Part shown: positions 483 to 35,604 of the stretch, one piece after another
How the letters are laid out: each line of letters begins with the position of its first letter
Position numbering within the stretch: position 1 is the stretch's first letter
DNA from: an uncultured bacterium
GTDB lineage: Bacteria > Patescibacteriota > Gracilibacteria > Absconditabacterales > Absconditicoccaceae
Direction of reading: 5' to 3'
DNA length: 64,000 bases
NCBI GenBank assembly: GCA_947168815.1
Contig: CAMVNG010000002.1
Location: 62,001 to 126,000 of the forward strand
The notes under the pieces: generated by a model
The model's database searches: none
The model's input: only the letters and a program-made list of their open reading frames with translations
Told to the model about the DNA's origin: nothing
Translations under genes and position numbers: made by a program

Positions 483-1061
483 ATGGTGTCAATAAGGTAT
501 AATAAAACATTATGGATTGCTCTGTTCTTAAGTCTTTTTTTTAGCTTCTCTTTTATTTTCTCTGATGTGTTATTCGAAAGAAATGATTTAGGATATAAGG
601 CTTTAAGTATTCTAAATCAATTCTTTGTGACTATCTTTATGTCTTTAGTAATCTATTGGATCGTCGTTAGAACTAGAGATACGGATAATCAAGTGGTACA
701 GCTTAGAGGCATACTTAATTTCATAAGTATTGTTATTAAATCATTTGATACAGAGGGAAAAAATGAAAAACTTGTCAAATTAGAAGAATTGAAGGCGAAT
801 CTTGAATTAGGTAGAAAAAGAATTAAAAGATTTTCGATTTTGGGCATTGCATTGATTAGTTTACTATTAGTAAATGGGTTACTCAATTGCTTTATTGATT
901 ATTTTACATCACAGAACGCTTTGATTAGTCCACTTATTAATGATGAAACGGATATAGCAAGATTGACGGCTATAAAACGTTGGATCCCCTTTGTCCTTCT
1001 ACTTCTTGCATTTATGCTAGTGCCAAGTTTTATGAGAACAAATCCTTATGAGGAGAAGTAA
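483..1061 (+). CDS. Hypothetical membrane protein (192 aa), no in-frame TGA
   Basis: Intact ORF, hydrophobic segments, all Gly as GGN, TAA stop inside a terminator hairpin. Confidence 0.75.
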   Translation: MVSIRYNKTLWIALFLSLFFSFSFIFSDVLFERNDLGYKALSILNQFFVTIFMSLVIYWIVVRTRDTDNQVVQLRGILNFISIVIKSFDTEGKNEKLVKLEELKANLELGRKRIKRFSILGIALISLLLVNGLLNCFIDYFTSQNALISPLINDETDIARLTAIKRWIPFVLLLLAFMLVPSFMRTNPYEEK

Positions 1062-3214: not shown

Positions 3215-3358
3215 AAGTTGAACATTCTTTATAAAACACCAAAAGTGTAATAATATTTTATATTCTTGCAATATAAAAAAGAAATTAGTATTTACTTTTA
3301 CAAGGAAATATATAATATATGTGATATAAATAATAAAAGTATCACAAAAAAAAGAATT

Positions 3359-3841
3359 ATGTATCGTATTACTGAACAAATTGAAGAAGTGGTGACTCCA
3401 CCATTTAGTGTGTTAAAATTCTCTCATGCAATTTTGCTTCTAGTTGAGAACATTGAATCTATCGATACTCTGAATGCTTTGGATAATTTCATGAATATTC
3501 ATGTTCTGTCTTCCTGGCTTTCTGATCATATCGAGCAGGTTAATGCAATTCCAGCTACGGTCGAGGCTATTAAACCATTAATTAACAGATTTGGAAGATT
3601 GAAAGGTTTAGAATCTGAGTTTAATTCGAATCATTCAAACCACAATTCACGACCTGACACAATCGTTACAACGGATGAAATCTTTGTTGGAGAGACTTCA
3701 ATGGCTGCCATCTATGCTCTTAATGAGGACGATCAGGATCCTTATATCGAGCAGATTCTTGAGATGATTAAGCAGTATCAGGGGAAGACACTATGGTACT
3801 CAGGAGCAATGCACATGTTGCCACCACATCATTGTGAATGA
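3359..3841 (+). CDS. Hypothetical protein, no in-frame TGA, apparently terminating at TGA
   Basis: MYRITEQIEEVVTPPF…MLPPHHCE then TGA, followed 18 nt later by a strong terminator hairpin. Table 25 readthrough would extend to TAA at 3926-3928. Confidence 0.7.
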   Translation: MYRITEQIEEVVTPPFSVLKFSHAILLLVENIESIDTLNALDNFMNIHVLSSWLSDHIEQVNAIPATVEAIKPLINRFGRLKGLESEFNSNHSNHNSRPDTIVTTDEIFVGETSMAAIYALNEDDQDPYIEQILEMIKQYQGKTLWYSGAMHMLPPHHCE

Positions 3842-3859
3842 ACATTACTTTGTAGAGAG

Positions 3860-3895
3860 GGTATGAAATGAAGCATTTCATACCTTTTTATTTTT
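3860..3895 (+). terminator. Intrinsic terminator
   Basis: GGTATGAAATG-aag-CATTTCATACC-TTTTTATTTTT. Confidence 0.9.
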
Positions 3896-3943
3896 CCTTG
3901 CTTTTTAAGCGTCGGATATATAATCTAATAAAAAAACAAAAAT

Positions 3944-4483
3944 ATGAAAAAGATATTACAACGTTATTCAACCCTGTATTCTTCATTAGATGTGCTTAAA
4001 TCAGTGACTACTTTTGAAGAAGTTGTACTCTCATTCCCAGTTATATTTTGGTTCTTGGGGTATCATGAACTGTTTCCCAAATGGTGTATCTATACTGCAT
4101 TGTTTCTTATCCTTTGGATTCAGTTTAAACTTGATTATACGAAATATCGTTTACCGAGAGATTTGTATACGTTTATCCAGGAGCTTGAGTCTCAAAAAAA
4201 TGAACTGTCTGAGTTTATTAATTCAAGTGAAAAACTATTAAATCTTTTCGAACAAGAATCTAAAAACAAAGATCATTTACCACTTTCATCCTATATTAGA
4301 CCAGAGTTTGCTAGACATATACTTTCTTCTGACAATCCTAAAGAATTAACAGATAAAGAAATTGTTGAAGGCATAAAACTGGCCCATAGGGAGGCAATAA
4401 ATGATCTATCGGAATGCTCGGATATTATCTATGATGCAAAGCATCTTTTAGAAAGGGTACTTAGAAAATTAAATGCAGAATAA
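3944..4483 (+). CDS. Hypothetical membrane/coiled-coil protein (179 aa), no in-frame TGA
   Basis: Intact ORF, hydrophobic segment, own terminator. Confidence 0.7.
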   Translation: MKKILQRYSTLYSSLDVLKSVTTFEEVVLSFPVIFWFLGYHELFPKWCIYTALFLILWIQFKLDYTKYRLPRDLYTFIQELESQKNELSEFINSSEKLLNLFEQESKNKDHLPLSSYIRPEFARHILSSDNPKELTDKEIVEGIKLAHREAINDLSECSDIIYDAKHLLERVLRKLNAE

Positions 4484-4488
4484 ATTTT

Positions 4489-4528
4489 AAAAAATTGGAT
4501 TGAGAAATCTCAGTCCAATTTTTTTGTT
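4489..4528 (+). terminator. Intrinsic terminator
   Basis: AAATTGGATTGAGA-aa-TCTCAGTCCAATTTTTTT. Confidence 0.85.
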
Positions 4529-7825: not shown

Positions 7826-10800
7826 TTATAAGCTGAAGAGTGTTCCTAGAGGAACAAATTCAGAATAGCTATAATGTACTTTATAATTCATATCCCAAAG
7901 TCTTGCTCTAACAGAGTCATCTTTTTGTAACGTATTTGAATAATCTGCAAATTGACAAGGACAAGAATTACATACAGGTTTTACTAGAGCACATCCATCT
8001 CATTCACAAAGAACATCTGGTAGAGGAGGACATCAATTGTCATCAGGATCTGCAGTACAATTGAGTTCTTTACATGCCTCAGGTCATTCTTTTCCAGGTA
8101 AGTCCTTACATTCATCTAATGAATCAGGAACACAATCACAATCTTCATCACATATAGGAACATCTCAAGGACAGTTTTCACAGTCTTCACCAGGATCTTG
8201 CTGGTGATTTCAACATTTAGTTTGTATTTTACAAAGTACGCAAACAACTCCTTCTGGCATATTAGGATCATTTGGATCACAATCTTCAATAGGAGAACTT
8301 ACTATTCAATCTCAACATACAGCCTGACATTTGTTTCAAAGATCAACAGAACAATTGTCGCACTGTTCATCAGGTTGTTCTTTTCAGTCTCAACAATCAG
8401 GTTGTTCATCGGTAAATCTCTTACAATCAATTCTACATTCATGGTCATTACCATTACCATTTCAGTGGTTAATATCTCAATGATCACATTCTTCATCAGA
8501 ATCTTGATGTCAGTCTCAACAGAAATGGTCTCAACCTATAAGTACACACTGTTCATTACAGATACCATTAACTCCATTTCATGTTCCATAATCACATTGT
8601 TCAGGATCTTCTTTAATACCATTTCAGCATGAAGCACTACATTTTCATACATCTTCTGAACAATTAATACATTGTTCTCAAGTATTTTTGTTACCATCTC
8701 AACACTTTTCTCAATGATTTACACATTTATCAGCAACGTCTTCAGCACAAGTATCACAATCCTCTTTTTCATCTCTTTCTCCATTTCAGCAACTTTCAAC
8801 ATCTGTACAAATCTCGGTACAAATTCCATTAACTCCATTTCAAGTTCCATAATCACATTGTTCTCCTTTCTCTGGTTTTCCATTTCAACACTTAGTTAAA
8901 CATTTCACTCATAAATCTTCAGGACAGGTATTACAGTTCTCATTTACATCATTATCTATCTTTCCATTTCAACATTTTGGTCTAACAACAGTTTTACAGT
9001 GAATAGTACATTGTCATAGTACGCCATTTGCTGTTCATTGATCACATGTTTCTCAAGGATCTGGTAATCCATTTCAACATTTATTGTTTGGATTAATATT
9101 CCTACAATTTATATCACATAGTCAATCTACTCAGTTTCCTGTTCAATTATCACATTCTTCTCCATCTTCTACTTTCTTATTTCAACAACTTCAAGTACAT
9201 AATCATACATCTGTATCACAATTAGAACAGTCTTCATCAGGATCTACTTTTTTATTTCAACAATTAGGATGGTTAGGATCGAAAATCGTACAACTTTCAG
9301 TACATTCATTATCTTTTCAGTTGTTAGGTCCATGATCACATGCCTCATCTCATTCAGGTATTCCATTTCAACATACTGTTTTTACAACATTTTTACATTC
9401 TAGCGTACATTCTCAATCTCTTCCATTTCTTTCTCAACGATCACATTGTTCTCGAGGCTCATCTAGATTCTCGTCTCAACATTTTGTAGCACATTTAGTT
9501 CATAAGTCTATAGGACATGTAGCACAAGTTTCTCATGCATCAATTTTACCATTACCGCATAGAGCTCAAGGTAGAATAGTCGTACAAATAAATGAACAAG
9601 GACCTTTTCAATTGTCTTCTCATGCATCACATTGTTCTCAACGGTCTATATCAGTATGTCCATCTCAACAATACGGTTTTCATGGCGTTACAACCATTTT
9701 ACAATTTTTAGTACAAATACCGTTAATTCAATTTCAAGAACCATAATCACATTGTTCTCATCATTCACGTATTCAATCACCACATGAACTTACACAAGCT
9801 CCAACATCTTCTTTACAATTGCTACAGTTCTCAGCTGGTTCAATGATTCCATTTCAACATTCAGCAGAACACTTTTTTACATCTGATTCACAGCTTTTAC
9901 AAGTTTCATCACCATCAATTTTTCAGTTAGGACATTCACTTACAAGTGTACAATCTATTTTACAGTTATTATTTAGTCAATTAAATGTTCAATCATCACA
10001 TTTTTCCGTTTCTTTATTGTGGATTCCATCTCAGCAGAAATCATCTCAGAAGCATCTTTCTCAAACATCTTCCGCACAAGTCTGACAGGTTTCTCAAGTA
10101 GTATCTCAATCATTACAGTTTGTGGTTTTTTTACAATCCTTTCAACAGATTGAACCTTCTTTTCAGTTATCTGTCTTTAAATCACATTCTTCTCATGCTT
10201 CCTTATCCCATACCCCATCTCAGCAAGAAGGCTTTCTTTCTAACCTACAATCTTTTGTACATCAACTTCCTTCTTTTCAGTTATCATCCTTTTTATCACA
10301 TTTTTCATCTCACTCTTGAATTCCATTTCAGCATTTAGCAGTTGTTCTTTTACAACTAAAAGAACATTTCCCATTAAATCAGTTATTTTCAACTCAATCA
10401 TCACATTCTTCTCATGTTTCAGGAATTCCATTTCAACAAGTATAAGAACATTTAGATCCGAGATCAACTGGGCATGATTCACAATCTTCTCAGACATCAT
10501 ATACTCCATTTCAACATTTAGGATGTGTTGCATCTAATATAGTACACATTAATGTACAATTGCTAGCTGTTGTTCAGTTTTTATCTCAAGCATCACATTG
10601 TTCACCTTGATCTGGCTCACCATTTCAACATTTATCATTCCATCAAATTAATCTACAGTCAGTAGCACAAATTCAGTTAAATCCATTTTCTAGTGTTCAA
10701 TAATCACATTGTTCTCAAGCTTCAAGTATTTTATTTCAGCATGAACCTCTACATGCTTTTACATCTTCACTACAAGTAGAACAATGTTCAGCTTTTTCAA

Positions 10801-13800
10801 TAGTATGATTTCAACAGAATGCATTACATTCTCAAACATCTTCTTTACAATTTTTACAATCTTCTCAAGCTTCTATAATACCATTTCAACAAATTGGAAC
10901 GACACTTCAACTTGTAATACAAATAGCTCATAAATCAGCAGAACATTTTTGGCAGTTTTCGTTCTCATCTATTTTTCAGTTAGGACATTCATCTTCTTCT
11001 CAACATAGGCTTGTACAGTTGACTCCATAGGAACCGTTTTTCTCTTTTCATAAATCACATTTTTCATCTCATTCAATAACTCCATTTCAGCAAACAGCTC
11101 AATGCTCAAATGAACATTCTTTACTACAGATTCAATCAGTTCAATTATCATCTCAATTATCACAGGCTTCATTTGTTTCTTGAATACCATTTCAACAAGA
11201 AGCAAGACAGCTAACTCAAAGATCAGTTGCACATGTTGTACAATTCTCTCCGTTATCTACTTTTCAGTTTCAGCAACCTGGATATTTTGGATCTTTTCTT
11301 GTACAACTCTTAGTACAATCACTTTTACTCGTTCAGTTGTTTTCTCAATCATCACAGGCTTCATTTTTATCTTGTGTTCAGTCTCAACAATAATGAGATT
11401 TACTAATATTTCTACAATCTTTACTACATTGTCAGTCGGTTCAATTTGAAGATCAATTATCACATTCTTCTCAAGGTTCTTGTTCTCAGTTTCAACAGCT
11501 TCAGCTACAAGCTTTTAAATCTTCAGGACAATTGTAGCATGTTTCATTAGCATCAACTTTATTATTTCAACAAGTTGAAGGTTTTGATATAGTTTTACAT
11601 TCAGCACTACATATTCAGTCTTTCCCATTAAAATTACCGCTATCACAATCTTCTCAATATTCTTTTTCTCAATTTCAACAAGTATTGCTACATTTTATTC
11701 ACAAATCAACAGGACATGTTACACAGTTCTCTCATAAGTCTATTTTTCAGTTTCAGCAGAGTGGTTTAAGAAAATTATATTCGGTACATTTTAAAGTACA
11801 ACTACTTCTTGATGTTCCATTATCAACTCAATCATCACACATTTCTCACTCATCTGGTTTTCAGTTTCAACAAAAATGTTGGGAGTCTACATTAATACAT
11901 TGTTCATTACATTTACCATCTTTTCAATTTTTATCTCAGTGATCACATTCTTCTCATGGTTCTAAAGTTCCATTTCAACAGCTTCCTCTACAATTCATTA
12001 CATCTTTTGGACAACTACTACAGGTTTCTGCATCTTCAACTTTTCCATTTCAACAATATGCAGTACATTGACCAACGTCTTGAGGACAAGTTTCACAGGT
12101 TTCACCTTCTTCTATAATTCAATTTCAGCATTCACCTTTCCATGGGATAATACAAGCATCTTTTGAATCTTCAGGGCAGGTATTACAATTTTCTCATTGA
12201 TCAATTTGTCCATTAGGACATTTTCTAATCCAAGTACAATTTGTAGAACAATTTTCTCAGACATTTCAATTCCTTGATTTTCATAAATCGCAATCTTCTC
12301 ATGTTTCAAGCTCTCCGTTTCAACATTTAGGTTTCTTTACAACATCCTTACAATTCGCATCACAACTACTTCAATCAACTCCATTCTTACCAGATCCTTT
12401 ATCACATTCTTCACCATTGCTCTTTTCTTTTGTACCATTTCAGCAATAGATTTTTGGATCGGCTGGAGTGTGGCAATCAAATCCACATATTCAATCTTTA
12501 CCGTTGTTCTCATATCAGTTGTCACAAGTCTCTCATATCTCTTGTTTACCGTTTCAACAAGTTTGTAAACATTTATCTCATAAATCTATCGCACAAGTTT
12601 CACAAGTTTCTCATGGATCAATTTCTTTATTTCAGCATTTAGGAAAATCAGGTAGATATCCGGTACAACTTAATGTACATGAATATCAAGGAGTTCAGTT
12701 TTTTGAACCACCATCACACACTTCAGTTCATTCTCTATCTCAATTTCAGCATATTTGATCGGGATCAACAACTTTACAGTCTTTACTACACAATCAATCT
12801 TTTCAATTGTTATTACTACCGTTATCACATCCTTCTCAAGGTTCTTGAATACCATTTCAACAACTTCAACTACATTGACCAACGTCTTGAGGACAGTTTT
12901 GACATGTTTCAGAGCTTTCAATTTTACCGTTTCAACACAATCAATTACAGCTTCAAGCATCTGTAGGACAGTTAAGACATGTTTCTCCCTCTTCTAAGAT
13001 ACCATTTCAGCATTTTCATTCTCAAGGAGTAAGACAAATATCTTTTAAATCTCTAGGACATGTTTCACAAGTCTCTCATGGATCAACAGTTCCATTTCAA
13101 CAAGTAACAACAGTTCAAGTATCAATACAAATATCTTTTAAATCAGTGGCACAAGTTTGGCAGGTCTCTCATTTATCAATAATACCATTTCAACATGTAG
13201 GATTGTTAATATCAAAGCCAGTACAAGTAATAGTACAAGATCAATCTTTACCATTATTAGGACCATGGTCGCAGGTTTCACCACTATCTATTTTTTCATT
13301 TCAACAAAGAGTAGGGCATTGGTTCATATCTTTAGGACAATTTTCACAAGTTTCACCTTTTTCTTGGATATTGTTAGGACAAGTAGCACTACAACTTCAA
13401 ACGTCTTTTTCGCAGGTAAGACAAGTTTCTCATGGATCAATAATCCCATTTCAACAAGTAACAATAGATCAAGTATCGATACAAATATCTTTTAAATCAA
13501 TAGCACAAGTTTGGCAGGTCTCTCATTTATCAATAATACCATTTCAACATGTAGGATTGTTAATATCAAAGCCAGTACAAGTAATAGTACAAGATCAATC
13601 TTTACCATTATTAGGACCATGGTCGCAGGTTTCACCACTATCTATTTTTTCATTTCAACAAAGACTAGGACATTTTTTTACATCTTTAGGACAATTCTCA
13701 CAAGTTTCACCCTTTTCTTGAATATTGTTAGGACAAGTAGCACTACAACTTCAAACATCTTTTTCACAAGTAAGACAAGTCTCACCATCTTCGATTATAC

Positions 13801-16800
13801 CGTTTCAGCAAACAGGTTTTTTCATAAATTTACAATCAAATCAACATTCGTTATTCTTTCAATTTCTGGTTCATGCATCACAGTCTTCTCATTTATCAAT
13901 TTGTTCATTTCAACAGAGACTTGGACAATATGGCATATCTTTAGGACAATTTAGACAATTCTCTCATTCCTCTCGAATACCATTTGGACAAGTTGCACTA
14001 CATTCACCAACATCTTGAGGACAATTATCACAATTTTCACCTGGATCTATTTTTCAATCTCAGCAAGATGTGATACCTGGCTGAATACAAATATCTCAAA
14101 CATCCATAGGACATGTAACACAAGTTTCTCATGCATCGATTTTTCCATTTCAACAATTAGGAGTTTTATATCTAGTACAAGCAATAGTACATTCTCAATT
14201 TCAGTTGCTTGGTCATAAGTCGCATTCTTCTCAAGCATCAGTTTTACTGTTTCAACAAAGTGATGGACAAGTTGGCATATCAGCAGGACAGTTTTTACAA
14301 TTTTCTGCTTCTTCTTTTATACCGTTTCAACAGAATGCTGTACACTGACCAACATCTTGAGGACATGAAGCACAATCTTCTCCTGGATCTATTTTTCAAT
14401 CTCAACAATTACCTTCATTTTCACAAATATCTCAAATTCCATTAGCATTTAAATCAGCTTGATTAGCATTAGCACGAAAAGGACAATTATCAAGACTACA
14501 AACTCATATATGTCTTTTATACAGTAATTCATCAACATTATCTCAAACAATTAATGAACAGTCAGATTTTTCATATTGAATCATACCTAATAGGTTAGGT
14601 ACTCCATCTCAATCAATGTCATCATCATATAAATCAGGTATTCAATCTTTATCTAAATCACACTTAAGTCCTGAAAAGAGGGCATTAATATTTCAAAGTT
14701 TTAATCAAGTTTGATTCTTAGTTCAGAAACTAATAATACCTTTATTTTCTAATGAAAGGCTTCAACGACTATATTTTGTATTTACTTTAACAACACCTTG
14801 TCTATCTCAAAGAGATAAAATAATATTATCGTCTTTAACATTTTTTTCTGAATAACCAGGTTGTCAATTTAGTGTTGTTGATAGACTATCATTTTCGGAT
14901 AAGCTAAGTCATAGAGTTTTAAATCTAAGGTTAACATAATTAGAAGTCTCAGGAATTATATTATAGGTTTGATTTCATACAACAGATGGATCTTGTATAT
15001 TTAGTGTTGAAGTTGAAATAAGTTCATTACCATTTTTTAGTTTAATTGTTTGTTTGAGAACTTTTTTACCTTGTTCTGTATATGTGTTATAAGTGACAAG
15101 TCTAGAATCAAAGAAACTTGTTGATTTATCATAAGTCCAACTAATGCGATCTATAGAACTTGTAGGAATATTAACAAGTTTTAGTGTTGTAGAAATCCTA
15201 GAGTTTATTTTCTTTATAAGAGGAGAATACGTTGGTGTGAAAGTATAAAATTTTCAATCATCATCAAGGACATCAACGGTTGCAACGGCCATAAGAATAT
15301 TGTTTACATACCCCTTTACTGTGATATTGTTTCTTTCATTTGCTATAAGTGGTGTGAGGAAATTAGCTCATGGTCTTAATTTTTCAGGGATTCAAATTGC
15401 TGAATTTTCCCACTGAAGATAATCAAATTTTCATTGATAAGCTATTTGGAAAGCTCCAGTTTTTTTATTGTTGTCTATACTTGCAGAATCAATGTTTAGA
15501 TTATAAGAAGTATCAGTCGTATTTCAGAAGAAAACTTGTGTAGAAATAATATATTCTCTTCTGCTTTGAGTTGTAACTTTAGCTGAAACAGTATAAGTTC
15601 CCTGATTTGAATATGTATGAGAAACAGATTTACCTTTGGCAGATCAAAGATCTCAGAAATCCCATTCAACTGATGCTGGTGCTTCAGGACCAATAATTTG
15701 GAATTGTACGAATGAAGGAAACTTTTGGTCGAGAGAACTAACTTCAATAAAATAAGCAGCATCATCAACTTGATCTCAGAGTGGAGTTGTGTCTTGAGAA
15801 GGATAATTTTTTAATAGTCCATAGTTAATTCTTCAATTATCATCAACAAGACCAACAGGATTTTTTACTTTATCTCAGTCGATATCATCATCACAAACAT
15901 CACCTAAGTTATCTCAATCTAAATTACTCTGAGTTGGATTATAATTATAAGGACAATTGTCTTCATGATTAGGAATTCAGTCACAATCATAGTCGTTATC
16001 AAATTCACATTTTGTGTGGAGTTCATAAACAAGCTCTATCTTCTCAACAGCATCCATAGGTGAAATAGGACTATTTAGTGCTGTTACATCATCTGCAGTG
16101 ATAATTCAAGCTCTAATGAGTGCATTCACTTCAGCAAGAGGCCAAACATTCTTACCTAAAGAAGGGAATGTCTGAAATCAACAATTTTCTGGATTAAAGG
16201 TACAGTATCCAAGATATGTTGTATATTCAGTTCTATTTGTAATGCTTTGTGTTTCTTTCTCTTTAGATTGAATTACAGCAATTTGATTCGCATTAAAATA
16301 TTTGTATCTATAATCTGTTGGTTTTAATTTAGAGAACCATTCTTTAATATCTTTCCATGGTGCTGCATAATTAAACATTTGTCTGTCCATAAGTAGATTG
16401 CTGAGTGTTTGAAAAAACTCAGCTTTACTAACATTCCATTGTCCACAAAACTGTCCTCAACAGCTTGAAGATCCTAAAGGATATCAGTTCATAACATCAT
16501 TATTTCAAACTTTAGCAACACAGTAATAATAATTTGTTCCATTATAGGTTCCAGAAAGATATCATACATCTGAAAAATATTTTCATGGTTTAACTCTAAA
16601 TGTTGCCCAAAATGATTGATTATATAGTCTAGCCATATCTTCTGTCGGAACAACACAGTCCTGACATTCAACAGCATTTAAAAGCCTTGTAAAGTCATAA
16701 CGAGTAAGTGTTGGTCTAAGTAAGAGATTTCCAATAGGAATATTTAATTGATTTAAATTTTGAAAGAATATTGAATTATATATTGAAGAAGCACTAGTTG

Positions 16801-16900
16801 TATTTTGAGCAGAGACAGAAAAAATGAATCAAAAGAATAGAAATGCGAAAGCTCAAATAATAAATTTAAGGCTTTTCAACTTGTGTATTTGTTTGTTCAT
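7826..16900 (-). CDS. Giant secreted Cys-rich repeat protein (~3024 aa) with TSP3, PKD and many CGNG/DUF4215-like (Myxo-Cys-rich) repeats
   Basis: Same frame verified at start, middle and end. Signal peptide MNKQIHKLKSLKFIIGAFAFLFFGFIFSVSAQN; TSP3-like DNCPYNYNPTQSNLDGDNLGDVCDDDIDGDKV; PKD VEWDFGDLGS…SHTYSNQGTYTVSAKV; repeats such as CCGNGIIDPGETC…CEKDVGSCSATC. Confidence 0.9.
13146..13760 (-). repeat. Near-identical intragenic tandem duplication, 354-bp unit (118 codons)
   Basis: Blocks starting ~13157 and ~13511 share long identical sequence (gcacaagtttggcaggtctctcatttatcaataataccatttcaacatgtaggattgttaatatcaaagcc…). Confidence 0.9.
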
Positions 16901-17070
16901 ATTTTGTATACAGAGTATAAACAGGAAAAAAAGTAATCATCATAACAATTAATTATAATTTTTTTAAAAAAAAGTACAATAATTTGAAGGGAAAATTAAT
17001 GATTTTAACTAGTGTTTTTTGAATTTAGTGATTTAATAATAGAAGAAAAAATTAAAAATTTTTTTATTAC

Positions 17071-30292: not shown

Positions 30293-30718
30293 ATGGCAAA
30301 TTTAATATTATTTAAAAAAGCGGAAAGTTATGCAAATATTAAGCAAGCTTTCTCGAAAGTAATTGAAGAATTTTTGCCAACGCTAACTTCTAGTTATCTA
30401 CCAGAAGCTTATGCATGGCAAAGTTACCTGAAGTATTTTACAGAACACAAAGGTCCGTACATTACTAATCGAGTTGCAAATGTCTATATTAAAGATATTT
30501 GCACCTATCTTGAATTCATCGCATTGCCGCAGACAGCCCAATTTCATCTTTATGATGCAAATGAACGAGTGCAAAAGTATGTGAGAATACATGATGATTA
30601 CTTGATAAAAGGGATTCTAATAGTACCGAATGAGGATTCCTCAAATAGTGTGGAAGATAATGTTATAATTGAGGAAAAAATTGCAACATATGTTAAAGAA
30701 TTCCTCGATAAAAAGTAA
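30293..30718 (+). CDS. Hypothetical protein (141 aa), no in-frame TGA
   Basis: MANLILFKKAESYANIKQAFSKVIEEFLPTLTSSYLPEAYAWQSYLKYF…; own terminator. Confidence 0.7.
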   Translation: MANLILFKKAESYANIKQAFSKVIEEFLPTLTSSYLPEAYAWQSYLKYFTEHKGPYITNRVANVYIKDICTYLEFIALPQTAQFHLYDANERVQKYVRIHDDYLIKGILIVPNEDSSNSVEDNVIIEEKIATYVKEFLDKK

Positions 30719-33930: not shown

Positions 33931-35604
33931 TCAGTATTCAAAGCTCGTTTTTTTTGTTCTGAGCTTTTCGGGCAGATACTTGTCTCTTTTAGAACTATAG
34001 GTATGTAAAGGTTCAGGTAATGGGTTTGGCGCCCAATTAATTCCATAAACACTTACCGCAGGGGCGAATTCCTCAGTTGGAACCCAACCACTTTCAGCTC
34101 CACAATATCCATTAGTTCTTCCATAATGATTACTCACTTCAATAATAGAACTAAGAAAATCAGTAAGGTTTGCAGACAATGTTCCACCGTGGAAATAACT
34201 CTTATTCCCGTTTTTATTGACTTTGATAAGGTAATCAACGGTGAGTTCAAAGGTTCCAGTCTCGATGTTTACTTCTCCAGCGTGAGATTCCACAATATAG
34301 TAGTACCCAAACTTTTCAAGAAGCTGTTTCTTTAGGTCGTCTAGACTGTGAGTGCTAGTACTATAAACCTTTAGGTTTGAAACACGAGGTTCTGGTTTTT
34401 TGGGACGAGGAATGATTTTCTCAAAGACATCACTATTTTCATCTTGTTCTTTAACAAAGCTTCCTGCAAGTGAATGTCCGTTATTCTCTTTGTGAAGACG
34501 TGCTGAAGAGTTCTTATCAAGAAGATAATTTTCAACAACTCCATTTTTGAGAAGACAGACGTCTTTTGCCGGGGTGCCTTGCATATCATACTCATAATGA
34601 GCAACCATAGTTTTATCTCTTGGACAGTCCCAAATCTCGAGATTCTTTAGAGCTTTCATAAAGCCATTCTTTGCTATATTTTTTCCGAGTTTGCCTTTGA
34701 ATATGGTCGAAGTTTCATTGGCAATGTAATAACCGGAAAGCATATGGCCAGCAAGGGCTTCATGACATAAGGTTGCCATGGCAGAAGGCATAAATAGATA
34801 CGGATAGATTCCACTTTCTAGTTGGCTCCGATTCGTACTATATAAAGCCTTCTGTAATTCATTTCGAATATCTTTAAAATAATTTTTTAAGATACCGAAA
34901 TTTAATGCCATTTGGCTACAGGAGACATCATACTCACGTTTTTTTGAGTTGAATAGATATCCATGAGCTCTTCCTTCAACAAAATCTTGATGCTGAATTA
35001 TTCTATTTTTTGAAGAATCAACAACAATCCAGACTTTGCGTTTGGAATATAGACATCCTGAAACACTATCAACATGAGGCACTAGAAAGAAATCTTGGAG
35101 AAGCTCAGAGAATTCAGTCTGAATTTCTTTTGAAGGATATTCGATTTCAGCTAGCTGAAACGCGGAATCATCCATATAAATAGGCGGAGTCTTCTCTTCT
35201 ACATAATACTTATTACATTTGGTTTTAGAAGTATAAAACTTATCGAATAGAGCATCAATAATGTTAGTAACTTCGCACCATAATACGGATAATATTCCTT
35301 CATAGGATTTCAGGTAGAGGTCTTGAAATACATCAACATGACGAAAAATTTTTGTCTTTTTTTCGATACATACTGTTATGAGTATTTCGGGAGTATCAAT
35401 CTCTCTATCAATGACACGTGCAATCCCATTTAAGTAAGATACTTCATAAGAAATATTACTTAAGAATGAGATACGAATATCACTGATTGAGTGAGCAACT
35501 TTTTCTCCAAAGGGATCTTCCCTTTTGAGTTTTAGGTTCATTGTCCTTTGAACTATGAGTTCAAGGGCTTGAACTAGAGGGAGATAGTTGAATGTTTTTT
35601 TCAT
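33931..35604 (-). CDS. TldD/PmbA-family metallopeptidase-like protein, no in-frame TGA, ending at TGA
   Basis: HExxxH in …ATLCHEALAGHMLSGYYI…, …YEYDMQGTPAKDVCLLKNGVVENYLLD…; 557 aa with ~28 Gly (hand count), all GGN. Confidence 0.8.
   Translation of the reverse strand: MKKTFNYLPLVQALELIVQRTMNLKLKREDPFGEKVAHSISDIRISFLSNISYEVSYLNGIARVIDREIDTPEILITVCIEKKTKIFRHVDVFQDLYLKSYEGILSVLWCEVTNIIDALFDKFYTSKTKCNKYYVEEKTPPIYMDDSAFQLAEIEYPSKEIQTEFSELLQDFFLVPHVDSVSGCLYSKRKVWIVVDSSKNRIIQHQDFVEGRAHGYLFNSKKREYDVSCSQMALNFGILKNYFKDIRNELQKALYSTNRSQLESGIYPYLFMPSAMATLCHEALAGHMLSGYYIANETSTIFKGKLGKNIAKNGFMKALKNLEIWDCPRDKTMVAHYEYDMQGTPAKDVCLLKNGVVENYLLDKNSSARLHKENNGHSLAGSFVKEQDENSDVFEKIIPRPKKPEPRVSNLKVYSTSTHSLDDLKKQLLEKFGYYYIVESHAGEVNIETGTFELTVDYLIKVNKNGNKSYFHGGTLSANLTDFLSSIIEVSNHYGRTNGYCGAESGWVPTEEFAPAVSVYGINWAPNPLPEPLHTYSSKRDKYLPEKLRTKKTSFEY

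Follow-up and report, generated by a model that had tools for sequence, protein, structure and literature searches.

A UGA-terminated gene in a recoded Absconditicoccaceae genome belongs to a class of genes kept in the standard code

Results

A TGA-free gene ends in UGA ahead of a terminator

The window, that is, the whole 64,000-nucleotide stretch of DNA analysed here, carries on its forward strand a TGA-free open reading frame of 160 residues (positions 3359-3841) that runs from an ATG at 3359-3361 to a TGA at 3839-3841. The upstream region (3311-3358, forward strand) holds a TATAAT at 3311-3316 and an A-rich leader, ATCACAAAAAAAAGAATT, ahead of the ATG. An intrinsic terminator lies downstream on the same strand (3855-3895), with a 16-bp stem, a 3-nt loop and a T-rich tail; the 16 pairs occupy 3855-3889 and are followed by ATTTTT. 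The RNA hairpin has a minimum free energy of -18.7 kcal/mol (z = -5.65), none of 200 shuffles was equally good, and its score of 29 is the highest for an in-ORF terminator across 849 kb of the genome. A preliminary description had placed the end of the frame at PPHHCE-TGA and the start of GGTATGAAATG 18 nt past the TGA, and both are confirmed. It had also stated that table 25 would read through the terminator, and translation in this code indeed gives exactly the claimed extension, GTLLCREGMKGSISYLFIFPCFLSVGYII and a stop (3842-3928, forward strand; 29 residues, up to the TAA at 3926-3928).

Homologues of the gene were found in two congeners, G014 and G015, at 45-48% identity. Their products end in PPHHCEE and PPHHCEQE, respectively, so that a TAA stands one or two codons past the shared CE, and each gene is followed by its own terminator. 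The preliminary description had proposed a comparison of C-termini and named conservation of the extension in relatives as a refutation; in both homologues the extension is unconserved, so that its reading of the TGA as the end of the gene withstood this check. Since it is absent from the homologues, it does not form a conserved part of the protein and, crossing the hairpin as it does, we judge from the sequences that it is not a real part of the product. Chance or a frame error was rejected because the homologues establish where the gene starts and where it stops; judged by this alignment, the UGA at 3839-3841 is the evolutionary stop and the true end of the gene. In-frame TGA codons are absent from the window gene, both homologues and a paralogue in the same genome. 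The gene thus shows neither feature expected of a table-25 gene: it has no TGA at glycine positions, and its conserved CE is followed by TGA instead of by TAA or TAG. Its GC3 is 0.34, versus 0.18 for native genes, and it has a neighbour in common with G015. It contains a single CGA, which lies at a variable site and by itself is uninformative on the meaning of CGA/CGG.

The product is mostly helical and belongs to a family of unknown function. It matched no entry of Pfam, NCBIfam or PHROGs, and a Foldseek search of PDB and BFVD with an AlphaFold model (pLDDT 81) gave no hit at E <= 0.001. Pattern-limited scans and tblastn did not find the family outside the genus in GTDB r220, IMG/VR, plasmids or phages, the tblastn searches of plasmids and phages being negative; nor did they reveal a close relative in a standard-code donor, although unsampled donors are possible.

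Similar genes lie elsewhere in the window. Directly downstream, a TGA-free ORF of 179 residues (3944-4483, forward strand) has the leader AAAAAAACAAAAAT, a TAA stop and a terminator at 4489-4524, and is a probable member of the class defined below (class F), with only 2 Gly codons. The same limit of 2 Gly codons applies to the TGA-free ORF at 30293-30718 (forward strand), a probable member with the strict leader AAAAACAAATACAAATAACT. The ORF at 483-1061 (forward strand; 192 residues, 6 GGN codons, GC3 0.28) is TGA-free and belongs to the class, as does a TldD-like protease gene on the reverse strand (33931-35604), which has 28 GGN codons, no internal TGA and, ahead of a terminator, a UGA stop at 33931-33933. 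The window gene had been described as an independent repeat of this TldD pattern, and this is supported: the TGA of the protease gene is real, and the pattern recurs in two more genes, one for a thymidylate synthase and one for an acyltransferase.

The native genes of the genome are recoded

Code 25 has been described for Absconditabacteria and Gracilibacteria, the former also reading CGA/CGG as Trp (Shulgina & Eddy 2021, PMC8629427). Its code, with CGA/CGG as Trp, points to a place for the window genome in the Absconditabacterales. In 461 kb of the genome, TGA accounts for 5,479 of 9,488 Gly codons (58%). RF1 was the only release factor of the RF1/RF2 type found, and no RF2 was detected above the cut-off among 49 genomes of the order. 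The genome encodes a tRNA(UCA) with the glycine identity elements G1:C72, C2:G71, G3:C70 and U73, and with RF2 not found the cell should therefore not terminate at UGA. The proposal of a UGA stop next to a terminator thus holds as regards the end of the gene, which the homologous C-termini support, but not as regards use of UGA as a stop by the organism itself. A tmRNA is present.

CGA and CGG are likewise reassigned. The tRNA(CCG) and tRNA(UCG) are Trp-like, with G73 and A1/G1:U72 (G000 tRNA loci L038, L050 and L055), and in native orthologue pairs CGA/CGG stand opposite TGG 395 times versus 7 times opposite other Arg codons. No extra Arg tRNA for CGA/CGG was found in the genome. ARAGORN labels these two tRNAs Arg and the UCA tRNA SeC, so that automatic annotation is misleading in G000. 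A GH26-like glycosidase related to endoglucanase H (G000 C1:402604-404007) contains 11 CGA/CGG codons, and comparison with endoglucanase H structures places native CGA/CGG at several conserved Trp sites. One ORF in the window (7826-16948, reverse strand) has 3,040 codons with 240 in-frame TGA, and a native-code ORF of 7,690 codons (G000 C2:131361-154433) is among the largest in the stretches analysed. TGA is also scarce in conserved native genes, including ribosomal ones.

A class of genes follows the standard code

Most genes in the 849 kb screened are TGA-rich, but 58 foreign-like ones are free of TGA up to their end. In this first count in the window genome, their GC3 was 0.32, versus 0.18 for native genes, and their stops were TAA, TAG and TGA in 37, 11 and 10 cases; the ten ending in a late TGA include TldD, thymidylate synthase and the acyltransferase. 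The count was extended to 2.0 Mb from three congeners (1,757 ORFs; the window genome being covered to about two thirds, in stretches), where 151 ORFs, about 8-10% of those called, form class F. These genes have no internal TGA, a AAAACAAATACAAA-type leader and often their own terminator, and their GC3 is 0.36 versus 0.17 for native genes. Assembly or bin contamination was judged unlikely, since F genes sit singly among native genes inside long contigs.

Both reassigned codon sets behave in class F as in the standard code. TGA serves as a normal stop (85 TAA, 33 TAG, 33 TGA), and in F pairs CGA/CGG stand opposite other Arg codons in 33 cases and opposite Trp in none, their usage at Arg positions being higher than in native genes. 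The evolution of F genes therefore obeys the standard code at each of two separate reassignments, and on these sequence features the window gene is a member of a class written and kept in that code.

The leader consensus, AAAACAAATACAAA, lies ~10-25 nt upstream of the ATG, and position -1 is T in 80% of F genes; the window gene carries a weak form of it. AACAAA occurs in the leader of 90 of 116 F genes versus 178 of 999 native genes, and among ATG-start genes a loose form of the leader precedes 88 of 120 versus 93 of 1,012. When genes were picked solely by an upstream ACAAATAC, the code being ignored, the TGA share of Gly codons was 7.6% versus 59.7%. Shine-Dalgarno sequences showed no difference between the two classes.

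The preliminary description had linked the UGA stop to the adjacent terminator. A terminator does follow the TGA in 14 of 33 TGA-ending F genes, versus 2 of 721 native genes at their last in-frame TGA (p = 5e-19). Adjacency is not the cause, however, because F genes with other stops also tend to have a terminator nearby (52/85 for TAA and 13/33 for TAG; native stops, ~20%). UGA is an ordinary stop in F genes, and a terminator therefore follows it as it does UAA or UAG.

Recognised members are ThyA, TK, NDK, PhoH-PIN, the acyltransferase and TldD; most of the class consists of ORFans. Six TldD copies from three genera have no TGA among 173 Gly codons, and their CGA/CGG codons face Arg 22 times and Trp never; the gene ends in TGA plus a terminator in two further genomes and in TAA or TAG in others. 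The thymidylate synthase (G000 C2:229878-230834) is in the standard code with a UGA stop, and its G015 orthologue, 71% identical, also stops at TGA, although the terminators of the two genes differ and their extensions are unrelated. The C-terminal residue of ThyA takes part in active-site closure, so that an extension past the UGA would probably be harmful. Viral relatives were found neither for the window gene nor for TldD, PhoH-PIN and a conserved F ORFan, and the nearest viral ThyA is only 46% identical; a phage origin was rejected on this basis.

F genes keep their code in conserved positions

Reciprocal pairs among the three congeners comprise 506 native-native and 33 F-F pairs and no mixed pair. 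Native genes with low GC3 and no TGA served as a control: they do acquire and lose the codon while keeping native GC3. At Gly sites shared by class F genes of G014 and G015, GGN faces GGN in 83 of 83 cases. Seven F pairs of these two genomes, including the homologues of the window gene, occupy the same slot in the same orientation between collinear native orthologues; the native gene adjoining the window-gene homologues is one that we take to encode glycyl-tRNA synthetase. The seven pairs contain no TGA among 140 Gly codons, whereas 23% of shared sites had switched in the native genes next to them. For this outcome P is about 7e-18 in a two-state model with native turnover, which ignores that TGA is two changes away from GGT and GGC. 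CGA/CGG partners in the same pairs are Arg in 4 cases and Trp in none, versus 39 Trp and no Arg in the neighbours.

Recent horizontal transfer alone, our initial working explanation, was dropped after the same-slot pairs and the CGA/CGG test. Genes acquired recently should have no vertical history, and seven same-slot pairs were found; import of this kind is insufficient because reciprocal partners of F genes are never native and the seven pairs are free of TGA. Synteny is lower for F genes than for native ones, on the other hand (2/17 versus 151/258 pairs between G000 and G015), and some of them therefore move or are re-acquired. F pairs are also more diverged than native pairs, and independent imports would give the same.

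In G014 C10 (L155; 4575-16537) and G015 C4 (28382-38448), four F genes lie in the same slots, with collinear native genes around them; one F gene of this region is 89% identical with a GC3 of 0.58-0.66, against a native GC3 of 0.17. In G000, the slot after the putative glycyl-tRNA synthetase gene (C2:3489-4714) is occupied by two unrelated F-class genes, where G014 and G015 hold the homologue of the window gene.

Discussion

Import in a renewed form has to be weighed against these data. F genes would come from standard-code organisms or mobile elements and be replaced, also at the same sites, before adapting, and the UGA would be a code-naive relic read as Gly, with extended or non-stop products rescued by tmRNA. 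The 126 genes attributed to horizontal transfer in Vampirococcus (Moreira et al., PMC8080830) are in keeping with this. So are the foreign-like GC3 and codon use of F genes, their lower synteny, the presence of tmRNA and the stop usage of 37/11/10, which is like that of an ordinary AT-rich standard-code genome; moreover, the nucleotide genes ThyA, TK, NDK and PhoH are typical phage cargo. Renewed import fits less well with 0 TGA in 140 Gly codons of the same-slot pairs despite 23% turnover next to them, with a window gene family found only in this genus in the GTDB r220, IMG/VR, plasmid and phage scans, and with the viral comparisons (46% identity for ThyA at best, no match for TldD or PhoH). 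We regard it as a serious possibility, although a doubtful one.

The leader common to F genes is regulon-like and could instead mark mRNAs of a state in which the cell switches its decoding, tRNA-Gly(UCA) being withdrawn, the UCG and CCG tRNAs charged with Arg in place of Trp, and an unknown factor or an altered RF1 stopping at UGA. ArgRS usually needs the anticodon base C35, and both tRNAs retain it. This scheme appears unlikely, however, since it calls for three linked decoding changes at once, native proteins made in that state would presumably be ruined, and neither RF2 nor an extra Arg tRNA was found. Much less probable still is that F genes avoid TGA and CGA/CGG as rare or slow codons because of strong expression, a terminal TGA being a chance stop loss. 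The few TGA codons of ribosomal and other conserved native genes are in its favour, yet it is contradicted by CGA/CGG, which are commoner in F than in native genes, at Arg positions; low-TGA native genes, for their part, hold native GC3 and both gain and lose TGA, and the TGA stop recurs in 33 F genes and is common to the ThyA of two species.

The explanation that we favour, at a confidence a little short of even, is that standard-code machinery outside the cell, most simply that of a bacterial host, translates the F genes. For purifying selection to hold genes to the standard code through long vertical descent, RF2 and Arg tRNAs for CGA/CGG would be needed, and these were not seen in the genome, which points to translation elsewhere. 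Relatives in culture live as obligate epibionts on standard-code bacteria (PMC8080830, PMC13059738), and the cytoplasm of the bacterium carrying the epibiont would therefore be the simplest site. More tentatively, the epibiont may keep dozens of dispersed host-code genes, equipped with a leader and terminators of their own, and send them into the host for expression. They would be delivered as DNA or RNA and expressed there from their own promoter, leader and terminator, as T-DNA or phage early genes are. Inside the epibiont, F mRNAs may be read through to a non-stop end and the products rescued by the tmRNA, which is present. A Pfam search of the window genome did not find a VirB4-like T4SS ATPase (PF12846), and it counts against expression in the host that a role of ThyA, NDK, PhoH and TldD in the epibiont itself would be plausible.

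The native genes agree with code 25 as described (PMC8629427), with TGA for Gly, CGA/CGG opposite Trp, Gly elements in tRNA(UCA) and RF2 not found, but about a tenth of the resident genes here are standard-code at both reassignments, which the consulted passages of that paper do not mention. A role of recoding in keeping out foreign genes has been discussed (PMC8080830). Standard-code-compatible phages have been assigned to Gracilibacteria/Absconditabacteria and are thought to serve two host types (PMC10746230); like F genes, theirs lack in-frame TGA and are readable in both codes. F genes differ in being single and chromosomal, with their own leader and terminator and, for several, a conserved slot, and no viral relative was found for the window gene. 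In addition, the TGA stops of the phages are backed up nearby by other stops, whereas in F genes the next stop is often beyond the terminator. The open-access literature yielded no report of a resident, vertically kept class of standard-code genes.

Two better-known systems offer partial parallels. In ciliates such as Condylostoma, stops are context-dependent, and a sense codon ends translation near mRNA 3' ends, much as at the window gene; F genes, however, are wholly in the other code, including CGA/CGG, do not need proximity to the 3' end, and occur where no UGA release factor was found. Agrobacterium T-DNA consists of resident bacterial genes that follow another cell's expression rules, a likeness in the way of working only: F genes are dispersed, their host is assumed to be bacterial, and neither border sequences nor a transfer system was identified.

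If this interpretation is correct, one bacterial genome holds two stably inherited gene sets that evolve under different codes, and annotation with table 25 mistranslates about a tenth of the genes, with wrong C-termini and Arg read as Trp. If delivery to the host also holds, a single bacterial genome would be written for two translation systems. The class would then provide a marker, from sequence alone, for genes possibly acting inside the host of an uncultured epibiont, and the effects of these bacteria on their hosts would be directly testable by proteomics.
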